Shown: positions 25,588 through 43,832 of the stretch, piece after piece | Layout: every line of letters starts with the position of its first letter | Position numbering within the stretch: the first letter of the stretch is position 1 | Assembly: GCA_019054805.1 (NCBI GenBank) | Contig: JAHQIY010000001.1 | Span: 10,058,501-10,122,500, forward strand | Length of the DNA: 64,000 nt | Direction: 5' to 3' | Source of the DNA: Brachionus manjavacas | Taxonomy: Eukaryota; Rotifera; Eurotatoria; Ploima; Brachionidae | Made by a program: the position numbers and the translations under genes | Notes under the pieces: generated by a model | Database searches by the model: none | The model's input: only the letters and a program-made list of their open reading frames with translations | Told to the model about the DNA's origin: nothing

Positions 25588-28500
25588 ATGGAAAATATTC
25601 TGGAACAACTGAGTGATCTTGTAAAACTTTCTAACTGCTTTTAAATTCTATTTTAAATGCATTTATTTAAAAGAAATTACAAAATAAAGAAAACGAATTT
25701 GATCACAATATAAAGAAGTAATTAACTGTAATAAACTTTCCTAATTGGATTTTTAAAATTTTAAAATCTTAGAACAGGAATTGTGTCAATTAATAGAAAC
25801 TGGTTCGTTAACGAAAGCATCTCTTTATTGTCAAAATTAAAAACTGTTCCGGTAAATAAAAAAAAGATCCTAAACTACTTTTTATTTGGTCTGATTTAGG
25901 TTCGTACAATTGATGAGAATGAAAATGCCATTATGCTTCAAACAAACCAAGTGTGCGTCAATGAAGAAGATAAAATGATGATTGGCACATCTCTTCAATT
26001 GATTTCTGATATAATATCCCAAAAGGTTGATAACGGATTTGCATTTATTCGCAATTTACCAACGCAAAACATCACAAGCCAAATAACGGAAATGACCATG
26101 GCTGTTCATGGAATTAAGCGTATTTTGATACTTGATTTGAGCAACCATTCTGATTCAAAAATTCAAAATAAATTTTATCAAAGTTCCAAGTAAAGAATAA
26201 AAAAATATTAAAAAATAATTTACTAATTATAAAATGACATGATTAAAAGGGTTTTATATGCTTCTATTCATCAATACACACACGGTCTCAGTGCTGAAGA
26301 GAGGCAATTTCACTTTATTGGAAATGACCAAGGAAAGGGATTTAATATTAATATTGTTATGGATGAGGTAGTATAAAGTTTTCGAGTAAAAATATTTTAA
26401 TTTCCTTTAGGAATGTTTTGGTGAAAGCGAGTACATGGCGACATTTTTTAACATTATACTCCCTGTTGCTTATGAAGTAAAATTTTCATTATTTTATTCA
26501 GATAAAAAATTCATTCTATTTAAGTTTAATCCGGAGATAATTTTTATACCATTCAATTTCCAAGAATCAAAAGTAAATTCAACAAAATTTGAAAGAAAAA
26601 TTTAATTTTTAATGTCAAGTTGTCACCTTCAATTTTTGGTCACATTATCCATTTTTTGTCTTGTTTGGCAAATGGAAAAATTTTTTTAATCCTTGATGTA
26701 AGTGCATGAGATAAAAATGAAAACAAAAAAAATTATTTTCAAATTTTTAAGGAAAAAGAGTCATCAGAATATTTCAAAAAATCTGTAAATGAACTTATCG
26801 GATGTTTGATGGGTTTACCATGTAAAAAACTAAAGTCTCTTCGGGAACCTGCTTCAAGGTATTATATTGAGCATTTAAATAATTGCAGTTGATACACTTT
26901 TTTCAATTAAAGTTCTATTTTAAAATCAATTTCAGTACTGAGACCATACTGGTGTTGTCTACAGCTATTGAACGATAACGATGAATCATTGAATTTGAAT
27001 GAATTTTTAGACAATCAAAAAAATAATTTCAAGATTACAAAACGAGGATCTTTGAGCAAACATTTTGAAAGAACGCTTAGATCTGATCTCAAGTTGGATA
27101 GCATAAAAACTAGAACTTGTTTATCATCCGATCTCGAAATGATGAAGCATTACAATCTATTACAATCGTAAATAAAATAAATTTAAAATAAAAAGTTAAA
27201 TTTGAAACAATTTAGAGATCATCCTGAAAAACCGGATCGTATTCAAAAAATCTTAGACACTCTGAAAGAAAAAAAATTGTACAACAGATGTCAAGAATTG
27301 AAGTCAAGATATGCCACTGAACACGAAATTCATTTATGTCATTCGTATTCATATATTGAAAAAATAAAATCTGTAAAATTTAAAAGTGAAAATGAACTAA
27401 AAGACTTGTCTGTAAATAGTCATTCAGTTTTTTTCAATTCTTCAACATTTGACTGTGCTTTGCTTGCCACAGGATGTCTTTTACAAGTTGTTGATGAAGT
27501 CTGCTCTAACAAAGTAAAAAATAATAATCTAGTTTATTCATTTAATTAAGTAAAAAATATTAAAGAGTTTAAATGGAGCGGGGGTTATTAGGCCACCGGG
27601 CCACCATGCATACTATAAATCATGTTCTGGTTTTTGTTTTTTTAATTCGATCGCTATTGCCGCTAAATATGCCCAAAAAAAATTTAATCATATTAAAAAG
27701 TAATCAAATTTTTTCTATTTCTTTCAAATTTTTTTTACTGTTCTCCTTCGAAGAGTTCTCATTGTTGATTTTGACATTCATCATGGAAATGGCACTCAGG
27801 ATATTTTTCTGGAAGATGAAACGTATGTAAAATTTAATTTAAGAACAAAAAGAATTATTATTTAACTCTAGAGTTTTGTTTATATCTATTCACCGTTATG
27901 ATAATGGTACATTTTATCCTATTGATGCCGGATCCAATTATGACGAGGTTGGAAAAGCTAAAGGCAAAGGTTTTAATATCAACATACCCTGGAATCAACC
28001 AACAGCTGGTGATGCTGAATATACTGCTGCGTTTCTTCGTATTGTGATGCCAGTGGCTTATGAGGTAAATAAATAAATTAATTAAAAAAATTAATTTTTT
28101 TTTTAAAGTTTAATCCTGATTTGGTTTTGGTTTCTGCTGGTTTCGATGGTGCAACTGGTGATCCACTAGTAATTTTCTTTTCTTTTTTTAGATAAACATA
28201 TAATTTCTTTCAAGGGAAGGTATAACATTACACCTACTGGGTTCGCTCAAATGACAAAAATGCTTTGCTCCTTAGCCAACGGCAAAGTCATCCTTGGACT
28301 AGAAGTACATGAAATAAACAAAGCAACTTTTAAATAATTAACTAATTTTAAGGGAGGTTATAATTTGGCATCAATAAGTGAGAGTATGGCAAGCTGCGTG
28401 AGCATCCTTTTAGGTGACATTTGTCCTTCTCTTCCTCCTATAAATGCTAAGCCAAAGTATGAAAAATTTATAAAGAATCGGAAGATTTAATTTGTTTTTC

Positions 28501-29222
28501 AAGAGCTTATGAATCAATTCGTAATGTGATTAAAATTCAAAAAAAATACTGGTCATGTCTAAAGTTTGATGGTGCGTCCTGTTAAATTAAAAAATAAAAA
28601 TTTATATTTTTCTAAATTAAAGATAAATTGCCAAATTGTGAATTTATAAAAAAATTCAAGTCAGACCGAAAACAAAAAAACAATAAACAGGCAGAAAATA
28701 ATTATACTTTGAGGAGTCGAAATAAATCCAAAGGTAAATAACAAAAAATAAAATTTATTTTTAAATTATTTTCTAGGGTAAATTTTTAAAGAAAATGAAA
28801 ACAATGAACAAGAATCAATTGAAATTTCCGATCCGATATCAAACACTCCCGAGATTTTGTCAACAGCCAGTAATGAAAGTTGTGAAATAGATATTCTTTC
28901 TGCATTCTCTATAATTCCCTTAACATATTGTCCACATTTGTCAGAATTAAATTCTAATCTGGATCCGAGTTTAATCGATGTAAATAGACCTTGTTTTAAA
29001 TGTAATGGCACAAAAGAAAATTGGATTTGTTTGTCCTGCTTTGAATGCGGATGTTCTCGGTTTGTCAAAGAACATATGCTTGAACATCATGACACAACTC
29101 AGCACCCCATGGTACTCTCATTTAGCGATTTATCTGTATGGTGCTATTTTTGTGAATCATATGTCCACAATGACCTATTAACTCAAGTCAAACAAATGGC
29201 TTATAAATCCAAGTTTGGCTAA
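25588..29222 (+). CDS. HDAC6-like deacetylase copy A: dead domain 1, active domain 2, ZnF-UBP
   Basis: Twenty exons fit in phase: 25588-25620, 25674-25717, 25773-25851, 25900-26189, 26250-26367, 26411-26476, 26525-26572, 26620-26697, 26752-26858, 26913-27167, 27216-27513, 27566-27699, 27754-27822, 27872-28064, 28109-28168, 28215-28304, 28353-28456, 28504-28571, 28623-28733 and 28792-29222. They encode about 891 residues. HDAC6 deacetylates tubulin and other cytoplasmic proteins and binds ubiquitin. Domain 2 (about 355-715) is complete: IRPPGHH (His 485/486), the zinc ligands Asp524 and His526 in DFDIHHGNG, Asp617 in SAGFD, and Tyr657 in LEGGYNL. The C terminus (about 795-891) is a UBP zinc finger with [32 protein letters not shown] and WCYFC. 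Domain 1 (about 27-300) is clearly homologous, with [18 protein letters not shown] and LPVAYEFNPE. It has lost the catalytic PPGHH (NLPTQ instead), the WDVHHG ligands (DLSNHS), the GFD aspartate and the GGY tyrosine. Its frame and splice sites are intact, so it is a pseudo-enzyme domain rather than a pseudogene. Confidence 0.93.
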
Positions 29223-31191
29223 TTTTCCGTTATATAATGTTTTATTTTTTTTAAGATTAATTAAAACATCATCAAAATAAATATTAAATTTTTGATCAAA
29301 TGTGAGTTTTTTATGTGTTCAAAAAATTCCTTGCTTACTGTTGAAAAAATCTAGTAAAAAACAAATAGATATCTTTTTATTAGTTAATGTTTTTAAGATT
29401 TTATCGATCTTTGACTCCCTGTTACTCATAAAACCATTATGACAAGACTTATAAAAAAGTTTACTAAACCAAACTACATAAAGCTATCGTTATAGAATAA
29501 GCTTAAAAAATTAGTTTTTAAGTCAATTTAACCACTTATACTTTTTAATTATTTTTTCGACTTCAACTTTTGTTTCCTTAGGCTTGGATAAATGAAAATT
29601 AAAATTTTTTACATTACATATTCCTTAAATCGAGAAAGTGTTTCATAATTTTTTATTTTAGTTCAATTTAGATTTTTTATCTTTTTAAATAAGAATGGTT
29701 TTAAAATTATTTCTATGGTTTCCATTATGAAAAAAAAATGATGTAACAAAAATTTTATTAAATTTTATTTAGAATAAGAAATTTTAAAACACAGAAGAAA
29801 TACTAGTTATTCAAATTTTATAATTTTTGGAGTTATTTTAATGAAAGAAACAGAATAAATATTAAAGCAAAACAAGGTTAAATTTTCAAATAATTATTAA
29901 TAATTTCAAAATAGGCAGGGAGAGAAACTATCAATTAATTAAGAGAAATGTCAATTATATTTATTATTATTTATTTGTAAATCTGTATCGAGCGTTAGCT
30001 CCTTCAGAGAAAAATAAAAAATAAAAATAAAATTAAATCAAAATAAAATTTAAAAAATAAAATAAGAATTAAAAAATATAGTTAAATAAATGAAATGAAA
30101 TGTTTTTGAAAGGCAGAAATATTTTTTTTTTATTTGTTTTCTGTGCTGAGCTAGGGCTCCTTCAGAATAAATTTAAAAAAAAATCAAATTAAAAAAAATT
30201 AAAGTTAATAAAATGAGATAAAAAAAAATCAAAATAAAGTAAATAAGCTAAAAAAAATGAAAATTTAGAAGACATAGATTGTTACATGTGGCAAATGTTT
30301 ACATAATTCAGGTTTCAGGAAAAAAGGAGGAAATAGTAAGCTTGCAATTACACAATAAAGTTGGGTATTCAATATATCTCGATTTTTTAATTATATTTTC
30401 GTCAATAATTGCTTGTCAATTATATTAAATATTTGTAGCTTAAAATAAATAATTCTGAATTAAATTTAATTTTTGTCAGTAAAATTAATTTATTGTAAAT
30501 TAAAGCCATTAAAAAGGATTTTGTATTAAAAAAAATAAATGACAAATAATTATTTAATAATTGTCTTCATTTTTTGAGACTACGTGGATAAATTCTTCGG
30601 TTAATGGTTGGTTTGATGGTCCATCGTGGTTTAAACATTACATGTGCAAGCACATAATAGGAATTGCATATCTGACGAATTATCTAGTATTAATTGAAAA
30701 ATATTTGTTTTTTAATTGACATTTATTTATATTAATTGACAAAATATCATTTTGTCTTTCAACAATTTTTTATAATGAAATGAATAATTTTTTTGTTTTT
30801 ATTTTCAAATAGAATTGATTATTATAAAGTATTTACTTCAGATAAAAATGATTTTTTCAAAGTTAAAAATTAATGAAAATTTGTTTAATATAATTATAAA
30901 TAAAATTTATCTAAAAAAAAATTAAAAAAGACTTTTTAAAACTAAAAATTTGAATTTTACATTCGTTCATGAACTTAAATTTACCGCAGTATTAATATAT
31001 TTACATTGTCCTTGTTTTGACACGGCTGACTTTTTATAAAACATAAACTATTCTACATTTTTGCAAATTAGTATTTGAAAAAATTTAAAACTTCAAGTAT
31101 TTGGATAATTAATTATATGAAGTAAGATGGATAATTATATTTTTTGGTATTGTTCTTACATTAATTTTTTATTTTAAAACCCAAAAGGGTT
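29223..31191. other. Intergenic region between HDAC6 copy A and U2
   Basis: No gene seen. It holds two related A-tailed repeats (29985-30215) and scattered TTGTCAATTA-like words near 30410 and 30715-30750. The region is otherwise very AT-rich. Confidence 0.5.
29985..30215. repeat. Two related repeats with an AGCTCCTTCAGA core and A-rich tail
   Basis: TTAGCTCCTTCAGA at about 29995-30008 and AGGGCTCCTTCAGA at about 30152-30165 share flanking words (TTTATTTG upstream). Each is followed by 60-80 nt of AAAATAA-like sequence. The core-plus-A-tail layout suggests 3' ends of two short retroelement copies, but too little is left to classify them. Confidence 0.45.
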
Positions 31192-31382
31192 TTGTGGACC
31201 GGTCCTAGCAAAATAGTGCAACGCCAGGTCGATCCGTGACTGGTGCCGAGCAAGCTCTGCGCAACCAGTCCATTCACAAAAATCGATTTAATATCGCGGG
31301 GACCCAATGGACCCCCCATCAGATATTAAACTGATGAGAACAGATACTACACTTTGATCTTAGCCAGAGGCCGAGAAGCGAT
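31192..31382 (-). ncRNA. U2: U2 spliceosomal snRNA
   Basis: The minus strand from 31382 begins ATCGCTTCTCGGCC and continues GGCTAAGATCAAAGTGTAGT, ATCTGTTCTCATCAG and TTTAATATCTGAT. This is the highly conserved 5' part of U2, including the GTAGTA that pairs with the intron branch site. The Sm site GATTTTTGTG and the loop IV region (GGATCGACCTGGC) follow. The gene is about 190 nt long, the normal size. U2 forms the U2 snRNP that selects the branch point. Stem IIb/III sequences differ from vertebrates, as expected. The 3' end is placed within a few bases. All key elements are intact, so it should be functional. Confidence 0.96.
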
Positions 31383-31403
31383 AAAGAGTATTAGAATTAC
31401 ACC

Positions 31404-31414
31404 TTTTATATATA
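31404..31414 (-). promoter_or_regulatory. TATA-like box upstream of U2
   Basis: On the minus strand, TATATATAAAA lies about 22-32 nt before the U2 5' end. Vertebrate and insect U2 promoters are usually TATA-less with a proximal sequence element, while a TATA box at this position is typical of U6. In a genome this AT-rich it may be chance, but its position is exact. Confidence 0.4.
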
Positions 31415-33321
31415 CGAATTAAATTTTTTTAAATTAAATTATTTTGCATTTACTTTCAGCCACGATTTCTAAATGAACTGACATCTTTAAGTTATGATTT
31501 TTTTTCTTGATGTTTTGTTCGTAGGAATTTAAGTGTGTTTTTTTCTAACATGATTTTAAGTTTACATTTAATTATAAGTAGATTTTTGCACAAAGTAAAC
31601 AATTTCAAACTTTATTTTTGAATATTATATTTTTTTAATGTAACTAATGATTGAAACTGATAAATAAGATTTGCTTAATATTATAATTTTGTGATTAGAA
31701 AATATTATTAAACTCAATATTTATTTTGACATTTTAAAGTTAAAAATTCTCAGAAGAAATTGAATATCCTTTAAAAAAAAAATTAGCAAAATTTATAATA
31801 TTTCTAATTTTGAAAATAAAATCTAAAGAATTTTTTTTTAAATGTTAAGATTCAACTAAAAATAACTTGGTAATCATCTGGTCTGTATATCTTTGCAGAT
31901 ATCTTGTTTCAAAAAAAAGACAAGAATTTAAATGAATTTTTTTAATTTAGTTGAATATTGACATTATTAAAATATTATAAACCTTTACTTTTCACATGAA
32001 GCAAAAAGGATAAAAATGGCATATAATTGTTACCAATGTTATTTTCATGCACTAAAAACAAATAAATTAGGTATAATTTTATTGATTGATTTTAAATTTA
32101 ATAAAAACAGAGAAAAATTTTGTAAACTGATGCAAAAAAAGAATAAAAAAAAGATTTAAAATTCGAAATTTATTATAAAAATAATAAATAACCATCTTTT
32201 TTATTTATTAACTTTAAAATGATATTTAACTTTCGATATTTATTTAATTCAATTCGAATGCTTTTGTATTTTAACTGATTTTAATTTTCTTAAACCCTCT
32301 TTAAAAGTTATTTTAATTAAATTCCTTTTTTTATTTTTATTTTGTAATCTAAATGATTATTTTTTAATCTTTTTAGCTTGGTATGGATAAATAAATAATT
32401 CAATAATTTATTAATTTTGAAATATTGAAGGGCTAAATCTAACGGTTTTCACGACCTTGAAAAATTTAAATATCAAAATTAATTAGGAAAAAATTGTTAG
32501 AATCTGAAGAATTTTCAATATTTTTATTTTTATAAATTTATACGCGATAAAATATATCTATTATTTTCCACAAAATTTCTAATTTGAGTAAGCTTTTAGG
32601 ATCATTATTTAGAATAATTTTTTGTGGATATAAGGATATCTGAAAAAAAGTGTAGAATTTGGGATCAACTATTTTTTCTATTATTTATAGACTAAATGAT
32701 ATTATGTCAATTAATATATATATATGTCAATTAAAAAACAAAAATTTGTCAATTAAAAATAGATAATTCGTCAGTTATACTAGTGTCAATCTGAAAAAAT
32801 AAATGTCATTAAAATAAATGTTTTGTCAATTAGTTTTTATATTTGTCAATAAAAAAAAATATTTGTCAATATAATATAAACAAATTTTTCAATGAAAAAA
32901 TTTTTTTAATTATTTCTTATTTATATTAATCAATTCAAAAAGAATTTTTAAAATTTAAATATGTTTATTTCTTTTCAAAATACAACTTTTTTTTTTAGAA
33001 TTTATTATTCTGAATTTTTTAGACCTTTTTAATGCAATATTTTAAATTTGGCATCTTTATCTATAATAATTTGGCGTCACAATGAATAAAAATATTGTTT
33101 TCAAAAATTGGCTTTTCAATTAGGTGAAAAGCACATAAGATCTCAAATTCATTTGTGGTAATTTTATTAATAAATTCAAATTTTATGTTTTGAAGGTGTG
33201 TTTAATATTTGTTAAAATTTTAGTGGCTAAATTATGTTAAATTTTCCAAATAGGAAGGTGTCATAATTGAAACTATACTTTATTAATAAAAAAAATAAAT
33301 TTTGTTTGTAAATATTTTTGC
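31415..33321. other. Intergenic region between U2 and PNPO
   Basis: No gene seen. It contains the clustered TGTCAATT words at 32703-32890. The remainder is AT-rich without visible structure. Confidence 0.5.
32703..32890. repeat. Cluster of irregular TTGTCAATT words
   Basis: Within about 190 nt the word TGTCAATT or a one-base variant occurs about nine times (for example TATGTCAATTAA, TTTGTCAATTAA, TTTGTCAATAAA), all in the same orientation at 15-35-nt spacing. Inverted copies (TTAATTGACA) occur near 30715-30745, on the other side of U2. It could be a decayed tandem repeat or a cluster of protein-binding sites. Confidence 0.5.
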
Positions 33322-34231
33322 TTATGGTGCTAATCTCTCAATGACCCATCCATTTTCACCTTCGATTGCAAATTCACCCAAATTTTCCCCTTCTTTTAAT
33401 TTTCTAAACCTAATTCTATCATGAAGCCTGATGTCATTTCCTTGCCAAAATTCTATTTCTTCAGGCACTACTAAATAACCTCCCCAATTTTCCGGTGTCG
33501 GTACAGTCTGAGTTGGTTCGAATTCTTTCGCTGCTTGCTGTTGTAGATCAATCAAATACTAAAAATGAATTAAAATAAAAAGCTATTGTTAAGAATTTTT
33601 TGATTACTTGTTTATCTTTAATAACTTTGCTCTGATCGCTTATATAGGCACTTATTCTTGAATTTAAAGGGCGTCTTGAAAAATACCCTATTGATTTTTC
33701 ACGATCTATTTTAGAAACTTTTCCATCAATTCTTATCTGTCTTGACATTACATCCCAATAGAAACACAAACTAGCTTGCGGATTCTTATCCAATTCATGC
33801 CCTTTTTTACTTGTGTAATTGGTAAAAAAAGTGAATCCATTTTCCGAAAAGTCTTTCAACAACACCATCCTACTTGATGGTCTTCCTTCACTTTAAACAA
33901 CGTAATTTACAATTCAAATTTTTAAAAGAAGAATTAATTTTAATTACAGTGTCGCAGTAGATAAACACATAGCGTTCTAAAATTTAATAATTGAATTTTA
34001 TTTTAAAGAAAAAAAAAGAATTTCTAATTTACTGGTTCTTTTATTCCTGGATTTTTTCTGGCCAGTTGAAACCAAGAGTCAAACTGCTTAATAGGATCTT
34101 TCGAGACTAAGTCCTTAACATCGAATATTTCGCTAGGATCTCCGTAATGAGCTCTAACATCTAAAAAATAATTTATTTTTTGCTAATGTCTAATTTTTAT
34201 CTATTAGTTTACTTGCAAAATCCGATGACAT
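33322..34231 (-). CDS. PNPO: Pyridoxine-5'-phosphate oxidase
   Basis: Five minus-strand exons (34213-34231, 34033-34160, 33948-33976, 33608-33890, 33322-33558) join in phase to about 231 residues (human 261, E. coli 218). The FMN enzyme makes pyridoxal 5'-phosphate from pyridoxine- or pyridoxamine-phosphate in the cytosol. Signatures in order are [73 protein letters not shown], the PENWGGYLV loop, [18 protein letters not shown] and the C-terminal WVIERLAP, which closes the active site. The 29-nt third exon is tiny but its phase and residues (NAMCLSTAT) fit the family exactly. It lies between the two HDAC6 copies in the opposite orientation. Confidence 0.95.
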
Positions 34232-36005
34232 TTTAGAAAAAACTAATTTAAAAGATGAATGTTTGAATAAAATATTATTTAGCTTTAAAATAAGCATGAT
34301 TTATTATACAACTAATAGATAAGTTTTTAGTATTGTTAAAAATTAAAAATTTTGATCGAAATTACTCGATCTTAATGAATAAAATTAAAAAAAAATCATA
34401 TAAAAATCTATCGTTTAATACACACATCGACAGCCGATTCAGGATAAAATTCACTTAAATAAAAGAATTTAAATTATCATTTGAGTCTTTAACTGAATTC
34501 AAGAAAAATAAACTATTATAAATTATTTTTTAATATTCAAATAATTAAATTTTCAAATTTGTTGTATAACTATTTCATAATTTTCTCGTGTTAAAAAACA
34601 TGAAATCGTGAAAATATATTTTTGTCTTAAACAAAAACTATCTAAAATATTTTAGCGTCTTTTACTAAAAATTTACAAAATTTTTTTTGTTAAAATGGCA
34701 TCAATTAAATTTATTAACAATTTAAATTGAAAAATAATTTTAATAAAAATTTACATTATTATTAATAGTTAATACTTTTTAATAAATTTTTTTATTAAAA
34801 CAAACTTGCAACCATTTATGTTGGTTAAAGTCAGTTTTTGACTTTGGCTCTTTTTTTATCATTTATCATTAGTATTTAAAATTAATTGAATTGGAATAAA
34901 TATTTTATCTTCTTATTGCTTGTTGTTTCATTTAAAATATTGAAAAATAAAAATATTGAATTATAAGCTATTTGTGATTTGAATTAAATTTTCTGCAAAT
35001 TAATCAAAATAATTCCCAATTTTCTGTCACTAAATTTAAAAAATGATAGTTTAAAAAAGATTTATAAAATGATATTGATTTAGTTAAGGATGTATATTAA
35101 CCCGTCTTATCAATAATTAAATTGTCATTTGGAAAAAATAAAATCTTCATATGGATAATTAAATAAATGATTTTAATTTTTTAAAAATTTAATTATTAAT
35201 TTTAATTTTAACTAATTAGTTCTCTATTTCACAACATACCCAAATCCCTAAACCAGGACTGTGCCCCGGATCCTTCTTAAATTTTATTTGATAATCATTT
35301 TTTTAAATGACTATCTAATCATTGAAATTACGGCTTTACATTTTACCGTTAATTAATAAAGTTTTATTTTTTTAATAATTTTTTTATTAAAGATAAAAAT
35401 AGAATGATAAATCGATCTTATTTTAAAAAGCGCATTAAATCATATTGTATTGTATTGTTTAAAAGTTTTTATGTATATAAAATATATTTGTGAAAAATTC
35501 ATAAACTTTTGTTTAAGTCAAATAGAATTCTAATTTTTAAATATTAACACTTAAACATTCTATTTTAATTAAGAAGAAATATAAGTAAAAATTAGAGAAC
35601 AGAAGCTAATTTTCCTTTTATGAACTTTGAAAAATTCAAAATTCTAAAAATATTCAGCTTCCAAATATCATTTTTTAATTTTCAGATAATAAGCCGTATT
35701 ATTTTTCCATTTTAATTAACTTTTTTTGATATAAAACTTTTAGATTCTTGATTTAAAAGTTTTCAAATTAAAAATTTAATTATACAAACTTTCAATTTTT
35801 CCGATTTTGAATGTTATCTGAATAGTCTAAATCCAATTTTCTCATTTCAATTTTATTTAAAAAAAATATCCTTTTTACCGCATTGATATGCTTCTCTCAG
35901 TCTAGATGAAGATCTAATAAAAAATTTTAATATTATAATAAATAAATGAAATAAATTATTTAAAATTTTTTTTTCATTTTTTTTAGAAAATTAAATTAAT
36001 TTCAA
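34232..36005. other. Intergenic region between PNPO and HDAC6 copy B
   Basis: No gene seen. It holds one copy of a short dispersed repeat (35231-35280). An acceptor-like pyrimidine tract ending TTTTTTTTAG lies about 17 nt before the copy-B start codon. Confidence 0.45.
35231..35280. repeat. Dispersed repeat with CCCTAAACCAGG core (second copy at 38325-38380)
   Basis: A segment containing AATCCCTAAACCAGG and then GGATCCT recurs with a few changes at 38325-38380 in the same orientation (AATCCCTAAACCAGG ... AGATCCT). It is clearly less AT-rich than its surroundings. It may be part of an element lying between or around the two copies. Confidence 0.5.
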
Positions 36006-39000
36006 ATGTCCAATTTTCACCAAAGAAAGCATTATAAAAAAAACAGGTGGATAAATTTCCAATTTGATTTCATGTAAAAAATAACTAATATTTTTTAAAA
36101 GAACTGGATTGATTTATGATCCTTTAATGCTTGATTACTATTGTTTATGGGATCCGATTTATCCCGAAAAACCTGACAGAATAAAAAAACCATACGAAAG
36201 ATGCCAATTTTATGGTTTAGTCGAACAATGTATTAATATTCCAGTAATAAGAAAATAAAATAATAATTATTTCTTGATTTATAAAAATAAATTTAGGGAA
36301 GACCAAGTACTGATGAAGAAGTTTTGAAATGTCACACTGATAGAGTGAGCAAATTGATGGGCAATTTGTCCAATATGAGCTACGAAGAACTAATGCATTT
36401 GTCAACTCAATATGATAGCATGTATTTTCATCAGAATTGCGATAAAGCAGCTAGATTTGCTTTGGGTTCTTCAATTGAGCTTTTGGATCATTTAATGAGT
36501 GATAAAGTAGATAATGGATTTGCTATTATACGGCCACCAGGACATCATGCAATGCACGATGAACCAAACGGCTATTGCTACTTTAACAATGCAGCTGTGG
36601 TTGCTAAAACAGCAATAGAAAAGTATAATCTAAATCGAATTATGATTATTGACTGGGATGGTAAGTTTAAAAAATTTAAAATATTTTTTGATGATGTTTC
36701 ATCTAAATTAAGTTCATCATGGACAAGGAGTTCAATATCAATTTTATGATGATCCAAGGTAATTTTTTTAAACTTTTAAAAAGTCTTTGATTAAAAGGAC
36801 AACTCAATTATTAGAGTTTTGTATTTTTCTTTACATCGTTATGACTACGGAGATTTTTGGCCAAATTTGAGACAATCAGATTTTGATTATATTGGCGAAA
36901 AAGAAGGCAAAGGTTACAACATTAACATCCCATTAAATAAGGTTTTTTTTTTAAACTAATTTTTTTAAAGACGGTTTCTATAAAAAACAAAATTCCGCGG
37001 GCATAGCTCGTTACAAGTAATGTTAGAATATTAAAAAGAGAAGACGACCTTGTGAAATTACTTAGATTTTTCTACCTTCAATATAAGTTTATAAAACAAA
37101 CATACCAAAAATAATAACAAGGTGCCCTAACAAGGTAAAAGTTACTGATTTTTTATATTGATTTTACAAAAATTTCACGAATTTACTAGAAGGTATAGAC
37201 ATTGAGAATATAAAAACGTAAAAATCCTTTCTGTACTTTTAGTACATTTTGATTATTATTATTAGAAGTAGTAGTATCTGCTGTATAGATATTTCTATCT
37301 ACATCAACGCTTGAAAGCGTTTAGCCTTATAAACTAAGGTTTTGGCAGACTTTGCTTTTCACCATTCCAAAAACTTCATTGTCAATGACTGCTTTAAAGC
37401 TGTTTATTGTTTGCGCACTAACAGCATTAACTGATAAGCTGTTCCATAATTTTACACACCGATTTGTTATGAAATTATATCTTAAAGAGCCTCTGCGATT
37501 TATTTCTCGAACTAATCTATTGTCATGTGATCTTCTTAGGTTTTTTACACCTAAACCCATTTGTTAACGATACTTTTTCAAAACCTTTTAAAATTTTGTA
37601 TCTTTGAATTAGATCTCCCCTTAGACGACGATTTTCAAGCTTCATTAGATTTAAGTATTTCATTCTGTCTTCATAAAACTTGGTTCTGGTATAATTAATC
37701 AATTTTGTCGCTCTTCTTTGCACTTTTTCAAGAATTATAATGTCTTTTTTTAAATACGGACTCCAGGTTCCTACTGCATACTCCAGATAGGGTCTCACAA
37801 GTGATGTATAGAGAAGTCTTAATGATTCTCTGCTAAGGTTCTTAAAAGAATTTCTAATTTGATCAAGTATTCGGTTAGCTTACATAGCTCCTACAGTACA
37901 TTGTTTATTCCATTTCAGATCATTTGTGATAAAAACACCCAAATCCTTTTCTTCTTTTATCTCCTCAAGGAGATGAGATATATTTTGGTTTGATAATAAG
38001 TATTTGGCTTTTTATTTTCTCTTTCCTAGATACATTGCTTTGCATTTGTTCAGGTTTAGATTTGTTGAACAATTTTCTGTCCATTCCATTAGGAGATCGC
38101 GGTCTTTCTGAAGTTCTAATGATCCTACGTTAGAGAATTCGGAGAGACTAATTAATTTTAGGTCATCAGACTGAAACTGTTGAAGCTCTCAAGGAGATCA
38201 TTGATATAAATTATAAATATGATTGGACCTAGTACGGATCCAAGTATCGGATTATAAAAAAAAAATTAATTAATTAATAGTTTAAATATTATTTTAAATT
38301 TTTTACTAATATTTCTCTCGCCTTTAGCATACCAGAATCCCTAAACCAGGGCTCCATCCCAGATCCTGTTTAATTTTTAATATAATGATTAAAACTCCCA
38401 TAAGGTATAATAAGTAACAGGGCTAAATGAAATAAAATTCTGATTAAGTACAAAAAGTACAGAAAGGAAAATGGTTTTTTAAAAATGTTTAATCTCTTTG
38501 TTTATCCATGAAAATTTAAGGACATTTATTTTGAATTTCGTTAATTTTACGTAAATTAGAAAAGTTAAAAATGGTAAATAAATAATTTGTTGTCTGTGTA
38601 GTTTTAGTATGTTTGTTGTGATGGCGTTTGCTTAATTTGCGTTTTTTGTTTCCTTTTTGGTTTAAAAAAATTTCCGAAAACTTTAGTTCATTTAGTTACA
38701 AAAAAATCTGATGTACTCTTAAAACTTTTTCAATTTTACGTAAAATTACAAAAGTTTCAAGTGAATGTTCTAAAATTTATGTAAATTTGCGAAAATTTCT
38801 GTTAGTTAAATCTAAAAGCAAAACTATATGAAAAAATAAAAATAAAAAAACTTAAATGATAAGAATGGAAATTAATTTATTTGATGACAAAAAATTTTTA
38901 AATGTTAAAAAGATAAATTTTATCATCAAAAATATAAAATAAATTTAGCAATTTATTTAACTAAACGATTCTTATAAAATAACACACTTATCTAATTAAA

Positions 39001-42000
39001 GAGTATTTTGTTTCCCGAAAAGCGATAATATTATTAATAATTAAATTAAAATTAATACCTTGAAATTTCTCATTGAATGTTTTACTCAATATCTAACCTG
39101 ATAAATCGTAGATGTTTTATTTAAATATTTTTAATTTTTTTTATTTAAAGCATTAAATTTTTAGAAAATAAACTTATAGATTTAATTTTATTTTATAATT
39201 TAGACAGGCTTTGGAAACAGTGAATATTTTGCTTCATTTTTCAACATTTTACTTCCGATCGCATATGAAGTTTGTATAATTTTTACTATTTATGCTAAAA
39301 ATGCTTATAAAAATCAATTGATTAAAATATAAACTTGTAGTATAAACCAGAACTAATCATTATATCATGCGGTTATGATTCAGCAATTGGTTGCTTTGAA
39401 GTAAGAATTTGTTTTTTATAATTTTTCCTATTTCTAGTTCCAACCCGAACTTTTGTTAATTTCGTGTGGATTCGACTCTTGTGTCGGAGATGAAAAAGTG
39501 ACTTTGACTCTGATCTTAAAAAAATTTTGAACAAAATAAATTTTTTTAAATTAATTTCTTTCAGGGACGAATGAATGTGACACCAGCTGGTTATGCGCAT
39601 TTACTAAATGCTCTGTCATGTTTCACCAACGCAAAACTTTGTGTTCTCCTAGAAGTAAAATTCTAATAACAATTAATGAAATTTTCTTTAATAAAAAAAA
39701 AATCAAAGGGCGGATACTGCATTAAATCATTAAGCGAAGGGGTCGCTTTGTCTGTGAGAGCTCTGCTTGGTTTTCCATGTCCAAGAGTTGAAGATTTCAA
39801 ACAACCCGACCCAGTGTAATTTTAAAACTAAATAAAAATTAGTATAAAAACCAAAATACTAATTTTCTTAATAGATTTGTCAAAACATTGTTAAATTTAA
39901 TATCGGTATTGAGACCCTACTGGAAGTGTTTACAATCACTAAATGATTCTGATGATTCGATTTCTTTAGAGAAATATCTTTTAGATTGGGACCTGAAGTA
40001 TAGAAAGGACATCAAATTTTACACTGATGAAACAAAGCCTGAAGAATTTGAATTAACTGGTTTTTATCCAATGTACTCGGATGAAGAAAACTCACACTGG
40101 GATAAAAAAATAGATGAACTTATTGACTCAACGGATTTGTTTGTGCCAGAAAAGAGAACTTGTTTTCAGATTGAAGATGGAATTGAGTTCTCATGTGACC
40201 TTTTTTCTCGAATTGATAAGTCCGAGTGTTCATCGGAAATATTGTCTGTGTTCCAAAATATAGCACAAAGAAATGTGACTTTAATAATTTTAAATTAGTA
40301 TTAAAATTAGGTCTTGGTTATTTTTAGTTCACTAATGGTTTAGTCTTGGTCAAAGAGCTTAATATTTCAAGTGGTTTTACAGAAATTGCGAAGCAAATAC
40401 GAGAAAAATATACCAGAATAAAAAAGTAAGAAAAAATAAGATTTTGATCTTTTACTTAAAAAGTTCGAAATAAAGATTTCTGAATATATTTTTGGCTGAT
40501 GATGTTCATCTATTAAACAAGGATCCAAAGTAAGTTTACTTTTGGTGCAATCATTCCGATTATAATTAAAAATATTTAGCGTATTTAACATTATAATTGG
40601 GTGCAGAAATGACCGGAATCAGCAGGATGATACCTCTAGTTTGTTTGTCATATTTGAAAATTTAGATGATGCTGCTTTGGTAACAATATTCTTAAGAATC
40701 ATTCTACCAATCGCTTACCAAGTAATGTCCTTTTTTTAAATAATTTAATATTTAATAATAGACAGGGAAAAAATAGTAAATTACAGAAACTTAATTGTTA
40801 ATTGGATTTTATCTTGGTTAATATTCAGAAAAATTCAAATGGATAAAAGATTTTTGATAATAATTTTGTACTCTTCTTTTTTTTGCTCAAAAATTTCTAT
40901 TAAGATTTAAAAATTAAGTTTTTTTTTAAAAGAAATTTTTAGTTTTGAGGATCGAAGAGTTGAAGATTTCAATCTATTCATATTAAAGTTGAATAATTTA
41001 GACGAAAAATTTTATTAATAAATAAATGAGTAAATACTACAATACAAAAAAATAGAATAGAAATACTAAAACAAAAATAGAATAGAAATCTTTTAATCAA
41101 AAAAAGTAATTGGTAATTGTTGAGTAGAACTTTTTTTCAATGTTGGGTTGTGAAGTTCAATTCAATTCAAAAATATTTGAATAACTTTTTTACTAAAAGA
41201 GATAATTCAGTTATGTAAAATGCAGAAAATTGCAGAGTATATTATTTTACTGAATGCTTATTATTAAACATTTTACATAAGTAAATTATCTCTTTTAGTA
41301 AAAAAGTTATTCAAATATTTTTGAATTGAAATGAACTTAACAACCCCTAAAAAATGAAAAATATTTCAAAATTCATGTTCTGATTTACTTTTTAAAAAAT
41401 AATTTTCGATTTTTTTTTTTAAATAATGATTAGCTTTTTTGGTTATGAAATTTCTTCTTAACAGAATTTAATGAATTGAAAATAGATGGTACTAAATATT
41501 GACTGATTTTTACAATGATTTTTTCAGGAAATTTTATTTTATTAAATTAAAAAAAACTTTAAATTTCTTAAAAAAATTACCGAAATTTTAATAAGGCTAT
41601 TGTTAGAACTTTCGTAAATTAATTTTTACTATTTACAAGTCAATTAACAAGTCTGAAAAATTCATTCTTGAATTTAAAAAAAAATTAAATTTGGAAATTA
41701 GGTGAATTTAAGGACCAAAGTATGAGAGTGAAACTTCATTGTTGTTCATGCTCATAAAAGTAGTTTAAATTATAATCCTTTAATTATTTGTTAAAAATCC
41801 TAATTTTTTTAAATTAAAAAAAAAAGTGATTAAACCCTTTGCGGTACACTCATGAATCGCGAAAGCTTCTACGAGAAATTCAAATTTTGTATCAGTTTTT
41901 CTGATTTTTGCTGTACATAGCATCCGAATAATCGAGAGGTCAAAAAATTCAAAAAAGTATTCGTAGGCTCGATTTTTTATTCCACAATTTGGTGTCTCAC

Positions 42001-43832
42001 AACGACCAAAACTATCGGGTGGTCGGCAAAGGTTTGAATTTTTTTTGGACCATACTATTTCTTGCTCAAAAAACACTCTTCTTCATCGTCGGAGTCATTA
42101 CAAGAGTAGTCCAAATCCGAAGATGATGAAATAAAATCATCATTATGATCGTTCAAGATCATTATCTAAGAATTTTGATATTTTTTATTTAAAATCAAAG
42201 CCAAAAAGTAGATTCAAATTAATTTAACAATTTTTATAAAAGCCAACAGCAAGATAATCATGTAATTTGAAATTCTTGCTGAAAATCGTCAGTTTTTAAA
42301 GTAAAATGCATCTAAAAATGCCAAAATAAAGTATACTTTATCTTATTATTTAATAATTAAATAATTGTCCCTATTCTATCCTAGTGGATAATGGGGAGGC
42401 GCTCATCTCCTTTTCATGTACCTTTTTGAGCAACAGCTATGATCTGACACAGAGGCTACTGCATCGGGTTGATCATCTACACCGCAATTATTACCCAGTC
42501 GAAACTAATCCCCCTATTTTTTTTGCTGAAAGAGGTTTAAACATTCGCCCCGTATTGCAGAGATATTTTGCAGATTTTTTCACCCTCAGCGGGTTTTGAA
42601 CCCTCGATCCTCTGCTTGCATGACTAACACGCAAACCATTCGGCTATACGGGCTCTTAAAAAATCTCAAATCAATAAATTTTGAACTTTAGGTAATAAAA
42701 AAGGTCGAAACGAGTAATAGGGAATTTGTTCAACAAGAGTCCTAAATCAATTTTTACCGTAGTTTTTAAAAATGTATTTATTTTTTTCCGTTTGAGAGTT
42801 AAAGCGAAAAATAGTTAGACCTTGAATTTTGGGACAAAAACAGCACAAATCAGAAAAACTGATAAAAAATTTGAATTTCTCGTAAAAAATCAACCTATTA
42901 AGTGTTTTTGAAATATAAGTAGCTATCGCGGTTCATGAATGTCTCCCAAAGGGTTAAAATAATATAATTTGTCAGAATTAAAAAAAAAATATCAAGATTA
43001 AAAATATAGGTTTTTTTAAAGTCCGAATTGATATTTTGTGATTTGATAATTGAAAAGTAAAATTTCTTTAATTTACATATGAGAATTAATTCTGAGCTCG
43101 AAAATTACTTAAAGAAAATTCAATTTTAATTATTTTGGTTTTGAAAATTTTAAATCTATCATCAAAGTAATTATATCGCACTTTGATTATCATTCGGTAG
43201 ATGCCTAATGCCTTTATACTCTATTAAAGCAATTCTTGAAAAAAATTTTTTTTTAAATTCTCTTGAAGATATTAAACAAAAAATAAAATTTAAATTTATT
43301 TTTTATTAAGTATAATCCTGATTTAGTGTTAATATACACCACTGATTTGGAAGCGATTAAAAGCAATAAAGTAACGATCTTAAAGAAATTTTATTTTATA
43401 TCTAAAATCTAAATTAAGGTGACTCACTTTGGCCTGGGTCAAGTCTACAAATATCTTAGCGCTTTGGCAGAGGGAAATTTGGTGCTAGCTTTTCAAGTAT
43501 TATTCCACTTTTTTAAATTATCAATTTTATTGAAGGTTTTAGGAGAAAGGATCTGATCCCTACCAGAAAGTGATCGAAATATCCAAGTTAGTTTTAAACG
43601 GTGATTCTCTTCAGTTACCCAACCCTTTGATTCCCGATGAAAAGTAAAATTTTAAAATTAAATAAATGAGAAAATGTTAATTTAATTTCTAAAGTCAAAG
43701 AAATGCCATTAAACAAAAGATTGATAAATTGAAAAACATTTGGAATTGTTTTCAATTTAATGGTAATTTTGATAAGAAAAATATTGAATCAAATTTAAAA
43801 TTTAATTTTTTTTAGAAAAACTTCCAAAATAA
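36006..43832 (+). CDS. HDAC6-like deacetylase copy B: active domain 1, dead truncated domain 2
   Basis: Exons in phase: 36006-36046, 36102-36243, 36297-36660, 36713-36758, 36815-36941, 39204-39269, then 39341-39400 and/or 39438-39497, 39565-39654, 39709-39815, 39875-40274, 40328-40425, 40476-40529, 40580-40721, 43311-43370, 43419-43496, 43543-43643, 43695-43762 and 43816-43832. With one of the alternative exons the product is about 686 residues. Domain 1 keeps all catalytic parts: IIRPPGHH (His 144/145), DWDVHHGQG (Asp182, His184), the zinc Asp in SCGYD or SCGFD, and LEGGY. It also has the HDAC6 domain-1 feature DFWPNL. Domain 2 aligns from RTCFQIEDG through NGLVLVKEL, LPIAYQ and YNPDLVLIYTTD to the end. 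It lacks the PPGHH segment, the HHG motif (ADDVHLLNK) and the ligand Asp in its proper context. The protein ends at NEKLPK, the same point where copy A continues to its ZnF-UBP. Two introns (2.3 and 2.6 kb) are full of transposons. Confidence 0.9.
37225..38468. repeat. Inverted 21-nt repeat flanking the intronic LINE
   Basis: TCCTTTCTGTACTTTTAGTA at about 37225-37244 is matched by its reverse complement, with one change, at 38448-38468. The LINE lies between the two arms, so it may have inserted into an inverted-repeat DNA element about 1.2 kb apart end to end. Alternatively, the arms are unrelated copies of one repeat. Confidence 0.45.
37250..38250 (-). mobile_element. Degenerate 5'-truncated CR1/L2-like LINE in an intron of HDAC6 copy B
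   Basis: Reading the minus strand from about 38247, fragments give GSVLGPI, INDLLESF, a frameshifted SDDLKLI catalytic box, EEKDLGVFITNDLKWN, LLYTSLVRPYLEYAVGTWSP, LEKVQRRATKLI, ENRRLRGDLIQRYKILKG and WNSLSVNAV. One in-frame stop and at least two frameshifts make it inactive. After the stop comes a hairpin (AACGCTTTCAAGCGTT) and a tail of TACTACTACTT and TAATAATAA repeats. It is the same family type as the copy at 2250-3163. Confidence 0.88.
39341..39497 (+). other. Tandem, probably mutually exclusive exon pair in HDAC6 copy B
   Basis: Exon a (39341-39400) encodes YKPELIIISCGYDSAIGCFE and exon b (39438-39497) encodes FQPELLLISCGFDSCVGDEK. Both are exactly 60 nt, phase 0 at both ends, and code for the same strand-loop carrying the third zinc ligand (Asp of G[FY]D). 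Both have good acceptors (TTGTAG, TTTCTAG) and donors (GTAAGA, GTGACT). The intron between them is only 37 nt, shorter than every other intron I measured here. This would hinder joining a to b. Including both would duplicate an active-site segment, so alternative use is the sensible reading. Exon b is closer to the HDAC6 consensus (GFD..GD). Confidence 0.75.
41132..41356. repeat. Foldback (MITE-like) element, arms about 79 nt
   Basis: The arms 41144-41222 and 41268-41346 are near-perfect reverse complements. Shared words include TTGAATAACTTTTTTACTA and AAAAGAGATAATT. The arms enclose a loop of about 45 nt. The outer ends read GGGTTGTGAAGTTC and GAACTTAACAACCCC. It lies in the large intron of HDAC6 copy B and would form a long hairpin in the pre-mRNA. 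Confidence 0.8.
41834..42953 (-). mobile_element. Internally deleted piggyBac-like transposon with TTAA flanks
   Basis: The ends are inverted: ACCCTTTGCGG at 41834 and, read from the other side, CCCTTTGGGAG at 42953, both directly next to TTAA. TTAA is the hallmark target site of piggyBac. The inverted similarity extends inward through CATGAATCGCG/CATGAACCGCG, AGAAATTCAAATTTT and ATCAGTTTTTCTGATTT. On the minus strand from about 42161 there is a start codon, an acidic stretch (DLDYSCNDSDDEEE), a one-base shift in a T run, then WSKKNSNLCRPPDSFGR and a KNRAYEYFFEFFD segment. These look like the N-terminal part of a piggyBac transposase. The frame then runs straight into the terminal repeat, so the catalytic core is deleted. 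A SINE is nested at 42366-42658. Confidence 0.72.
42366..42658 (-). mobile_element. tRNA-derived SINE nested in the piggyBac relic
   Basis: The minus strand from about 42658 begins like a tRNA. It has an A-box-like TAGCCGAATGG (42635-42647 region) and a B-box-like GGTTCAAAACCC (42591-42602), spaced as in a polymerase III promoter. The predicted anticodon and acceptor arms pair poorly, so it is not a working tRNA. About 220 nt of unrelated body follows, ending near GGATAGAATAGGGAC before an AT-rich flank. Its composition is much less AT-biased than its host. Tail and target-site duplication were not securely identified. Confidence 0.6.

Follow-up and report, generated by a model that had tools for sequence, protein, structure and literature searches.

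Probable division of an ancestral HDAC6 into two single-activity genes, one with a putative substrate-gatekeeper exon pair, in the rotifer Brachionus manjavacas

We analysed a stretch of 64,000 nucleotides from the rotifer Brachionus manjavacas (GenBank assembly GCA_019054805.1, contig JAHQIY010000001.1, positions 10,058,501 to 10,122,500 of the forward strand), referred to here as the window, which contains two HDAC6-type genes, copy A and copy B. Both copies encode two HDAC-type regions, of which one has retained the active-site residues (live) and the other has lost them (dead), and the losses are complementary: copy A has a dead domain 1, a live domain 2 and a ubiquitin-binding zinc finger (ZnF-UBP), while copy B has a live domain 1 and a dead domain 2 and ends before the ZnF-UBP. 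The explanation that we consider likely is that the pair arose by tandem duplication of an ancestral HDAC6, that its functions were divided by complementary loss, that the dead domains serve as structural partners, and that the gatekeeper residue of copy B is set by the choice of exon.

Results

Two HDAC6-type genes with complementary active sites

The features of the two genes, in positions of the window, are the following:

25588-29222, + strand: copy A, HDAC6-type gene with 20 exons encoding 891 amino acids; dead domain 1, live domain 2 and ZnF-UBP; B. koreanus orthologue P0121
25773-26858, + strand: dead domain 1 of copy A, exons 3-9 and slightly into exon 10; catalytic and zinc-binding residues gone, L1 and PPGHH regions shortened
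27112-28571, + strand: live domain 2 of copy A, with RPPGHH, DFDIHHG, AGFD and EGGY; gatekeeper Leu
28992-29174, + strand: ZnF-UBP of copy A (zf-UBP, PF02148, 67.1 bits)
36006-43832, + strand: copy B, HDAC6-type gene with 18 exons encoding 686 amino acids with either isoform; live domain 1, dead domain 2, without ZnF-UBP; orthologues P0001 (B. plicatilis) and P0002 (B. koreanus)
36102-39815, + strand: live domain 1 of copy B, with RPPGHH, DWDVHHG, G[F/Y]D and EGGY
40140-43832, + strand: dead domain 2 of copy B, ending in NEKLPK-stop; 88.0% identical to B. plicatilis and 61.8% to B. koreanus

The spliced models of both copies are open from start to stop, and every modelled intron begins with GT and ends with AG. 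Two short 5' exons of copy A were positioned with the aid of P0121 from B. koreanus, a protein that likewise starts with MENILEQL.

Seven catalytic and zinc-binding residues were scored per domain, as read off the domain alignments. All seven are kept in domain 2 of copy A and in domain 1 of copy B, and these two domains are presumably active. The corresponding positions in domain 1 of copy A hold T, Q, S, H, S, Q and E, the single His by chance (I, Q, D, N, S, Q and E in B. koreanus). In domain 2 of copy B, three of the seven positions are lost to deletions, one Asp and one His are left near the WDVHH site (Asp and Ser in B. koreanus), the GFD position is occupied by E and the GGY position by G (V in B. 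koreanus). Pfam reports two HDAC matches in copy A, the better one at domain 2, in addition to zf-UBP, and a single HDAC match in copy B, at domain 1. Domain 2 of copy A scored highest against chains of the second catalytic domain (CD2) of HDAC6. That each copy contains two HDAC-type regions, one of them dead, is seen in the alignments and in the structure models of the B. koreanus orthologues; in the whole-fold comparison of the copy-A orthologue model, the matches were dominated by domain 2.

The terminus of copy B, EKLPK-stop, is located where copy A and P0003, an HDAC6-type protein described below, continue toward the ZnF-UBP. No zf-UBP match was obtained downstream of copy B, the five remaining zf-UBP matches of the genome are all on other contigs, and the orthologues from B. 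plicatilis and B. koreanus stop at the same EKLPK, which argues against copy B exons being joined to a ZnF-UBP. The original prediction, made from the letters of the window and their open reading frames, had given the locus as 25588-43832, which is exact to the base, from the ATG at 25588 to the end of the stop codon at 43832. It had also claimed intact frames and splice sites in both genes, loss of the domain-1 active site in copy A with retention of domain 2 and the ZnF-UBP, and the reverse for the two domains in copy B with a stop before the ZnF-UBP, all of which agree with the results above.

The same states were recovered in congeneric species, for both copies in B. koreanus (P0002 for copy B and P0121 for copy A) and for copy B in B. 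plicatilis (P0001). The closest database protein to copy B is from B. plicatilis, at 90% over the full length; no copy A protein from this species was present among the 120 matches listed. In comparison with B. koreanus, the identity of the window proteins is 90.8% for domain 1 of copy B and 89.1% for domain 2 of copy A, and 78.2% and 61.8% for the dead domains of copy A and copy B, respectively. The comparison of copy B with B. plicatilis gives 96.2% for domain 1 and 88.0% for domain 2. Because the dead domains are conserved in the congeners, the sequences indicate that the complementary decay is old and that it is not an assembly artefact, a possibility that the original prediction had named as one that would undo it. 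In P0121 itself, residues 713-839 duplicate part of domain 2 with very low model confidence, and this segment is probably an assembly or annotation artefact.

Probable descent of both copies from an ancestral HDAC6

The protein P0003 contains both deacetylase domains and the ZnF-UBP intact in one chain, and is 68.9% identical to domain 1 of copy B and 62.6% identical to domain 2 of copy A. Phylogenetic trees were inferred from 39 of 301 fetched proteins, hand-picked for spread, together with three Brachionus proteins and those of the window, in sets of 44, 41 and 21 rows. For domain 2 of P0121, residues 355-711 were used and the second partial copy was left out, and the domain-1 tree was built without the columns of the alternative exons described below. 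In the domain-1 tree (44 rows), the dead domain of copy A, copy B and P0003 form one clade with a support of 100 in the Shimodaira-Hasegawa-like approximate likelihood ratio test (SH-aLRT), and in the domain-2 tree (41 rows), copy A, the dead domain of copy B and P0003 form one clade with a support of 99. Grouping with HDAC6 by the trees holds for the domains of both copies. In the smaller sets of 21 rows, the clade of six A, B and P0003 rows was kept for domain 1 (99/100), while for domain 2 it was without support and the dead domain of copy B was placed on a very long branch.

The gene structures also agree. Of the 17 introns in copy B, 13 match an intron of copy A in both alignment column and phase. 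Three more (B7, B14 and B17) agree in phase but border on a deletion or lie outside the part that could be aligned, and intron 3, which interrupts WD|VHH, is the sole intron of copy B that has no counterpart in copy A. The claim in the original prediction that intron positions and phases are shared is thereby upheld for most introns, with intron 3 as the exception. Genome-wide searches, which covered the assembly of 114,169,980 bases in 61 contigs, identified no third HDAC6 copy or other class IIb gene, and no detached ZnF-UBP was found near copy B.

The order in which copy A, copy B and P0003 diverged was less clear. Approximately unbiased (AU) tests per domain could not distinguish between the three possible orders (p 0.23-0.47), and the proposal that the two copies are sister duplicates is supported by the joint clade in the large trees but not settled with respect to P0003, nor by the 21-row domain-2 set. 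It has to be considered that the duplication predates the split from P0003, in which case P0003 would belong to the B lineage without having been split, and the decay would have occurred later, in the Brachionus line only. Such a scenario is consistent with a concatenated tree in which P0003 joins copy B (SH-aLRT 95), but we did not rely on this tree because each Brachionus row in it combines one fast and one slow domain, and the domain-wise tests fail to separate the orders. We regard the earlier duplication as unlikely. The residue losses, the conservation in the congeners and the common clade with P0003 support the original prediction of a split of one two-domain enzyme into two single-activity genes, with the activities judged from the residues.

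Copy B contains two alternative versions of the gatekeeper exon

The exon of copy B that codes for the strand and loop of the third zinc ligand (the GFD exon) is present in two versions, 7a and 7b, the second of which had been overlooked in the original prediction:

39341-39400, + strand: exon 7a, 60 nucleotides, YKPELIIISCGYDSAIGCFE; contains the zinc-ligand Asp, last residue is the gatekeeper Glu; present in P0001 and P0002
39401-39437, + strand: spacer between 7a and 7b, 37 nucleotides
39438-39497, + strand: exon 7b, 60 nucleotides, FQPELLLISCGFDSCVGDEK; contains the zinc-ligand Asp, last residue is the gatekeeper Lys; 20 of 20 amino acids identical in P0001

The two exons are adjacent, homologous and of equal length, with phase 0 on both sides and 10 of 20 amino acids identical. 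The last residue of the exon aligns exactly with K353 in the first catalytic domain (CD1) of human HDAC6 (P0126) and with E272 in human HDAC10 (P0182), both of which have been named as substrate gatekeepers (PMC5454378). According to the same source, it is the Lys that makes HDAC6 CD1 specific for C-terminal acetyl-lysine with a free carboxylate, the Glu in HDAC10 favours N8-acetylspermidine, to which a PECE insertion contributes as well, and the E274L substitution turns zebrafish HDAC10 into a lysine deacetylase (PMC5454378).

From these features we infer that 7a and 7b are spliced in a mutually exclusive manner in B. manjavacas. The alternatives are that both exons are included in the same transcript or that one of them is a relic, so that there would be no switch, and database models can be cited in favour, since the B. 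plicatilis model P0001 joins 7a and 7b while the B. koreanus model P0002 has 7a only. However, joint inclusion would duplicate a core strand and a zinc loop, and the spacer of 37 nucleotides is shorter than all 36 introns in the models of copies A and B, to which the comparison refers and of which the shortest is 43 nucleotides. Moreover, both exons are conserved, with 19 of 20 (7a) and 20 of 20 (7b) amino acids shared with P0001, and isoforms X1 and X2 of an ant protein carry one version each at the same position. Joint inclusion or a relic exon is thus rather improbable in our judgement.

The Glu/Lys pair in other animals

We surveyed the gatekeeper position in 181 fetched HDAC6-type proteins, which were assigned by hand from their names to protostomes, deuterostomes or a remaining group without a taxon name. 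In the protostomes, Brachionus included (n=128), we identified Glu in 84, Lys in 29, a Glu-Lys tandem in nine and neither in six proteins. Lys was found in 20 of the 21 deuterostome proteins and neither residue in the last one, and the remaining group (n=32) had Glu in 30 and Lys in two. The tandem was seen in models from B. plicatilis, the molluscs Mactra, Saccostrea, Ruditapes, Ostrea and Bulinus, and the insects Neodiprion, Ladona and Anopheles, and in all nine Glu comes first and Lys follows at a distance of exactly 20 residues. These models (P0001, P0013, P0018, P0021, P0035, P0041, P0051, P0057 and P0090) probably represent misannotations of an exon pair that is widespread in protostome HDAC6 and spliced in a mutually exclusive manner. 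For the ant Acromyrmex echinatior, two isoforms of equal length are annotated that carry different versions at this position, Glu in X1 and Lys in X2, while a third, X3, lacks both versions and is shorter by 20 residues.

The simplest reading of this distribution is an ancient pair of mutually exclusive exons. Independent duplications with the same outcome are possible, because a segment of 20 residues is too short to build a tree from, and the pairs of the other species were compared as proteins. Extending the simplest reading, we tentatively propose, with a confidence somewhat short of even, that protostome HDAC6 holds an ancient pair of mutually exclusive exons through which Glu and Lys alternate as the domain-1 gatekeeper, by which one gene would provide two kinds of domain 1, a cation-selecting one as in HDAC10 and an anion-selecting one as in HDAC6 CD1. 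In the deuterostomes, the two states would reside in separate genes, HDAC10 and HDAC6, and Brachionus would have freed the switchable domain 1 as an HDAC10-like enzyme of its own and left the domain-2 and ubiquitin functions to the sister gene.

We also considered whether the Glu in HDAC10 descends from the protostome Glu exon, but the motifs do not support this. HDAC10 has GDPE (87 of 120 proteins, the pattern missing in 33), the Glu exon GCxE (115 of 122 Glu segments) and deuterostome HDAC6 mostly GDPK, from which it follows that HDAC10 may have gained its Glu by a change from Lys. No report on a split HDAC6 in rotifers or on Glu/Lys gatekeeper exons was among the top-listed matches in the open-licence literature, and catalogues of insect isoforms may carry the exons uncommented.

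The dead domains are probably under constraint

Open frames of 308 codons in the dead domain of copy A and 250 codons in that of copy B are free of stops, as compared to 24.5 and 19.6 stops expected from base shuffles, and none of 2000 shuffles was stop-free for either domain. The conservation within the dead domains is uneven. Between the window and B. koreanus, the C-terminal helical half is 87% identical as compared to 72% for the catalytic half in copy A, and the corresponding values are 70% and 51% in copy B. The difference is smaller in the live domains (93 versus 90% and 95 versus 86%). The helical half that is kept is also recognisable in alignments with the pseudo-domain of HDAC10, for which the interface helices have been described as highly conserved (PMC5454378), and the dead domain of copy B is predicted to fold in the structure model.

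The dead domains have lost length and have changed more quickly than the live ones, and they might be functionless remnants in decay, and the gene pair a by-product of relaxed selection. We find this improbable, since in the window they contain no stops and can be spliced, and they also occur in proteins from B. koreanus (both copies) and B. plicatilis (copy B), with 70-92% identity in the helical half between congeners and a predicted fold in the case of copy B. A scaffold is their most likely role, by analogy with HDAC10.

Other features of the window and the genome

The region between copies A and B contains a U2 small nuclear RNA (snRNA) gene and a short gene on the - strand, which we take to encode a pyridoxamine-phosphate oxidase:

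31189-31382, - strand: U2 snRNA gene, full-length match, 157.7 bits

A reverse-transcriptase-like frame at 37523-37879 on the - strand, within the 2262-nucleotide intron 5 of copy B, is probably a fragment of a long interspersed nuclear element, as judged by eye. The segment 14001-16000 has a GC content of 0.417, as compared to 0.186-0.349 in all other 2-kb steps of the window. Other HDAC matches in the genome were labelled by eye as HDAC1-, HDAC3- and HDAC8-like, class IIa and one bacterial-like gene. One class IIa-like gene, L002 (G000:C14:2383887-2387843), has PPGSH replacing PPGHH, yet has EGGY, at a site where class IIa enzymes usually have His. The bacterial-like gene, L004 (G000:C43:244496-248287), consists of one long open frame on a contig of 249 kb and may reflect contamination or horizontal transfer.

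Discussion

A model for the division of HDAC6 functions

In the model that we favour, an ancestral HDAC6 with the order domain 1, domain 2 and ZnF-UBP was duplicated in tandem and the duplicates then underwent complementary loss. Copy A would have become a ubiquitin-binding domain-2 deacetylase, an activity of the tubulin type in vertebrates, and copy B a free-standing domain-1 enzyme. The dead domains would have lost the active site and loops and best kept the helical half, most likely as structural partners comparable to the HDAC10 pseudo-domain, with the dead domain of copy B holding the two-domain architecture. By picking 7a or 7b, copy B would set the charge at the rim of the pocket, and exon choice may in this way switch the substrate. 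By analogy with HDAC10 and HDAC6 CD1, the Glu isoform would be directed to cationic, acetylpolyamine-like substrates and the Lys isoform to anionic substrates such as C-terminal acetyl-lysine. Since copy B is without the PECE insertion, the Glu isoform is not necessarily restricted to the deacetylation of polyamines.

In B. manjavacas, transcripts called HDAC6/10 have been reported to peak after reproduction (PMC5333405), and HDAC6 and HDAC10 to increase with age (PMC12571253). Our guess is that the genes in these reports are copies A and B.

The role of HDAC6 domain 1 in animals, and why the domains stay together, are hard to study because the domains share one protein. Brachionus is a laboratory animal in which the two activities appear to be naturally separated, and each could be examined in vivo on its own. 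Provided that both isoforms are produced, the Glu/Lys exon pair would be a splicing-based substrate switch in an enzyme class of drug targets. The pair also suggests where polyamine-deacetylase activity might be sought in animals without a recognised HDAC10.

Comparison with HDAC10, HDAC6 and other tandem exons

Copy B resembles HDAC10 in that it has an active N-terminal domain followed by a dead C-terminal HDAC fold with the helical half kept, no ZnF-UBP and, in the 7a isoform, a Glu gatekeeper. This likeness in layout had also been overlooked in the original prediction. An interpretation of copy B as rotifer HDAC10 and copy A as rotifer HDAC6, that is, as an ancient animal gene pair with no split of HDAC6, would account for this layout, for scores of up to 386.9 bits for copy B against HDAC10 chains as compared to up to 372.5 bits against HDAC6 CD1 alone, and for a Foldseek search with the model of a copy-B orthologue in which the first 28 matches were all HDAC10. 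It is very improbable and was rejected, since the domain-1 tree places copy B with P0003 and the dead domain of copy A (100) and the three HDAC10 rows, all mammalian, among the vertebrate HDAC6 CD1, copy B lacks the PECE insertion that the HDAC10 rows contain, and the intron pattern is common to copies A and B. A greater closeness of the whole fold to HDAC10 than to HDAC6 was likewise not retained, with HDAC10 first by Foldseek and a near tie by VIA-align. The likeness of copy B to HDAC10 is convergent, not orthologous. Unlike HDAC10, copy B has no PECE insertion in loop L1, falls outside the HDAC10 clade and has a second isoform with Lys.

The pair resembles HDAC6 in domain order, sequence and the presence of the ZnF-UBP, and domain 1 of the copy-B orthologue is 42-43% identical to zebrafish CD1. 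It differs from HDAC6 in that each gene has a single live domain where HDAC6 has two, and copy B differs further by the lack of the ZnF-UBP and by the alternative gatekeeper exons. Judged by residues and trees, both copies are members of HDAC6 by descent only, with exactly one live domain each. Their closest unsplit relative, P0003, unlike them has two intact domains and the ZnF-UBP together. As in mutually exclusive tandem-duplicated exons in general, for which human cases have been described (PMC9741552), the two exons in copy B are adjacent, homologous and of one length and phase, but the residue swapped here is the substrate gatekeeper of a deacetylase.
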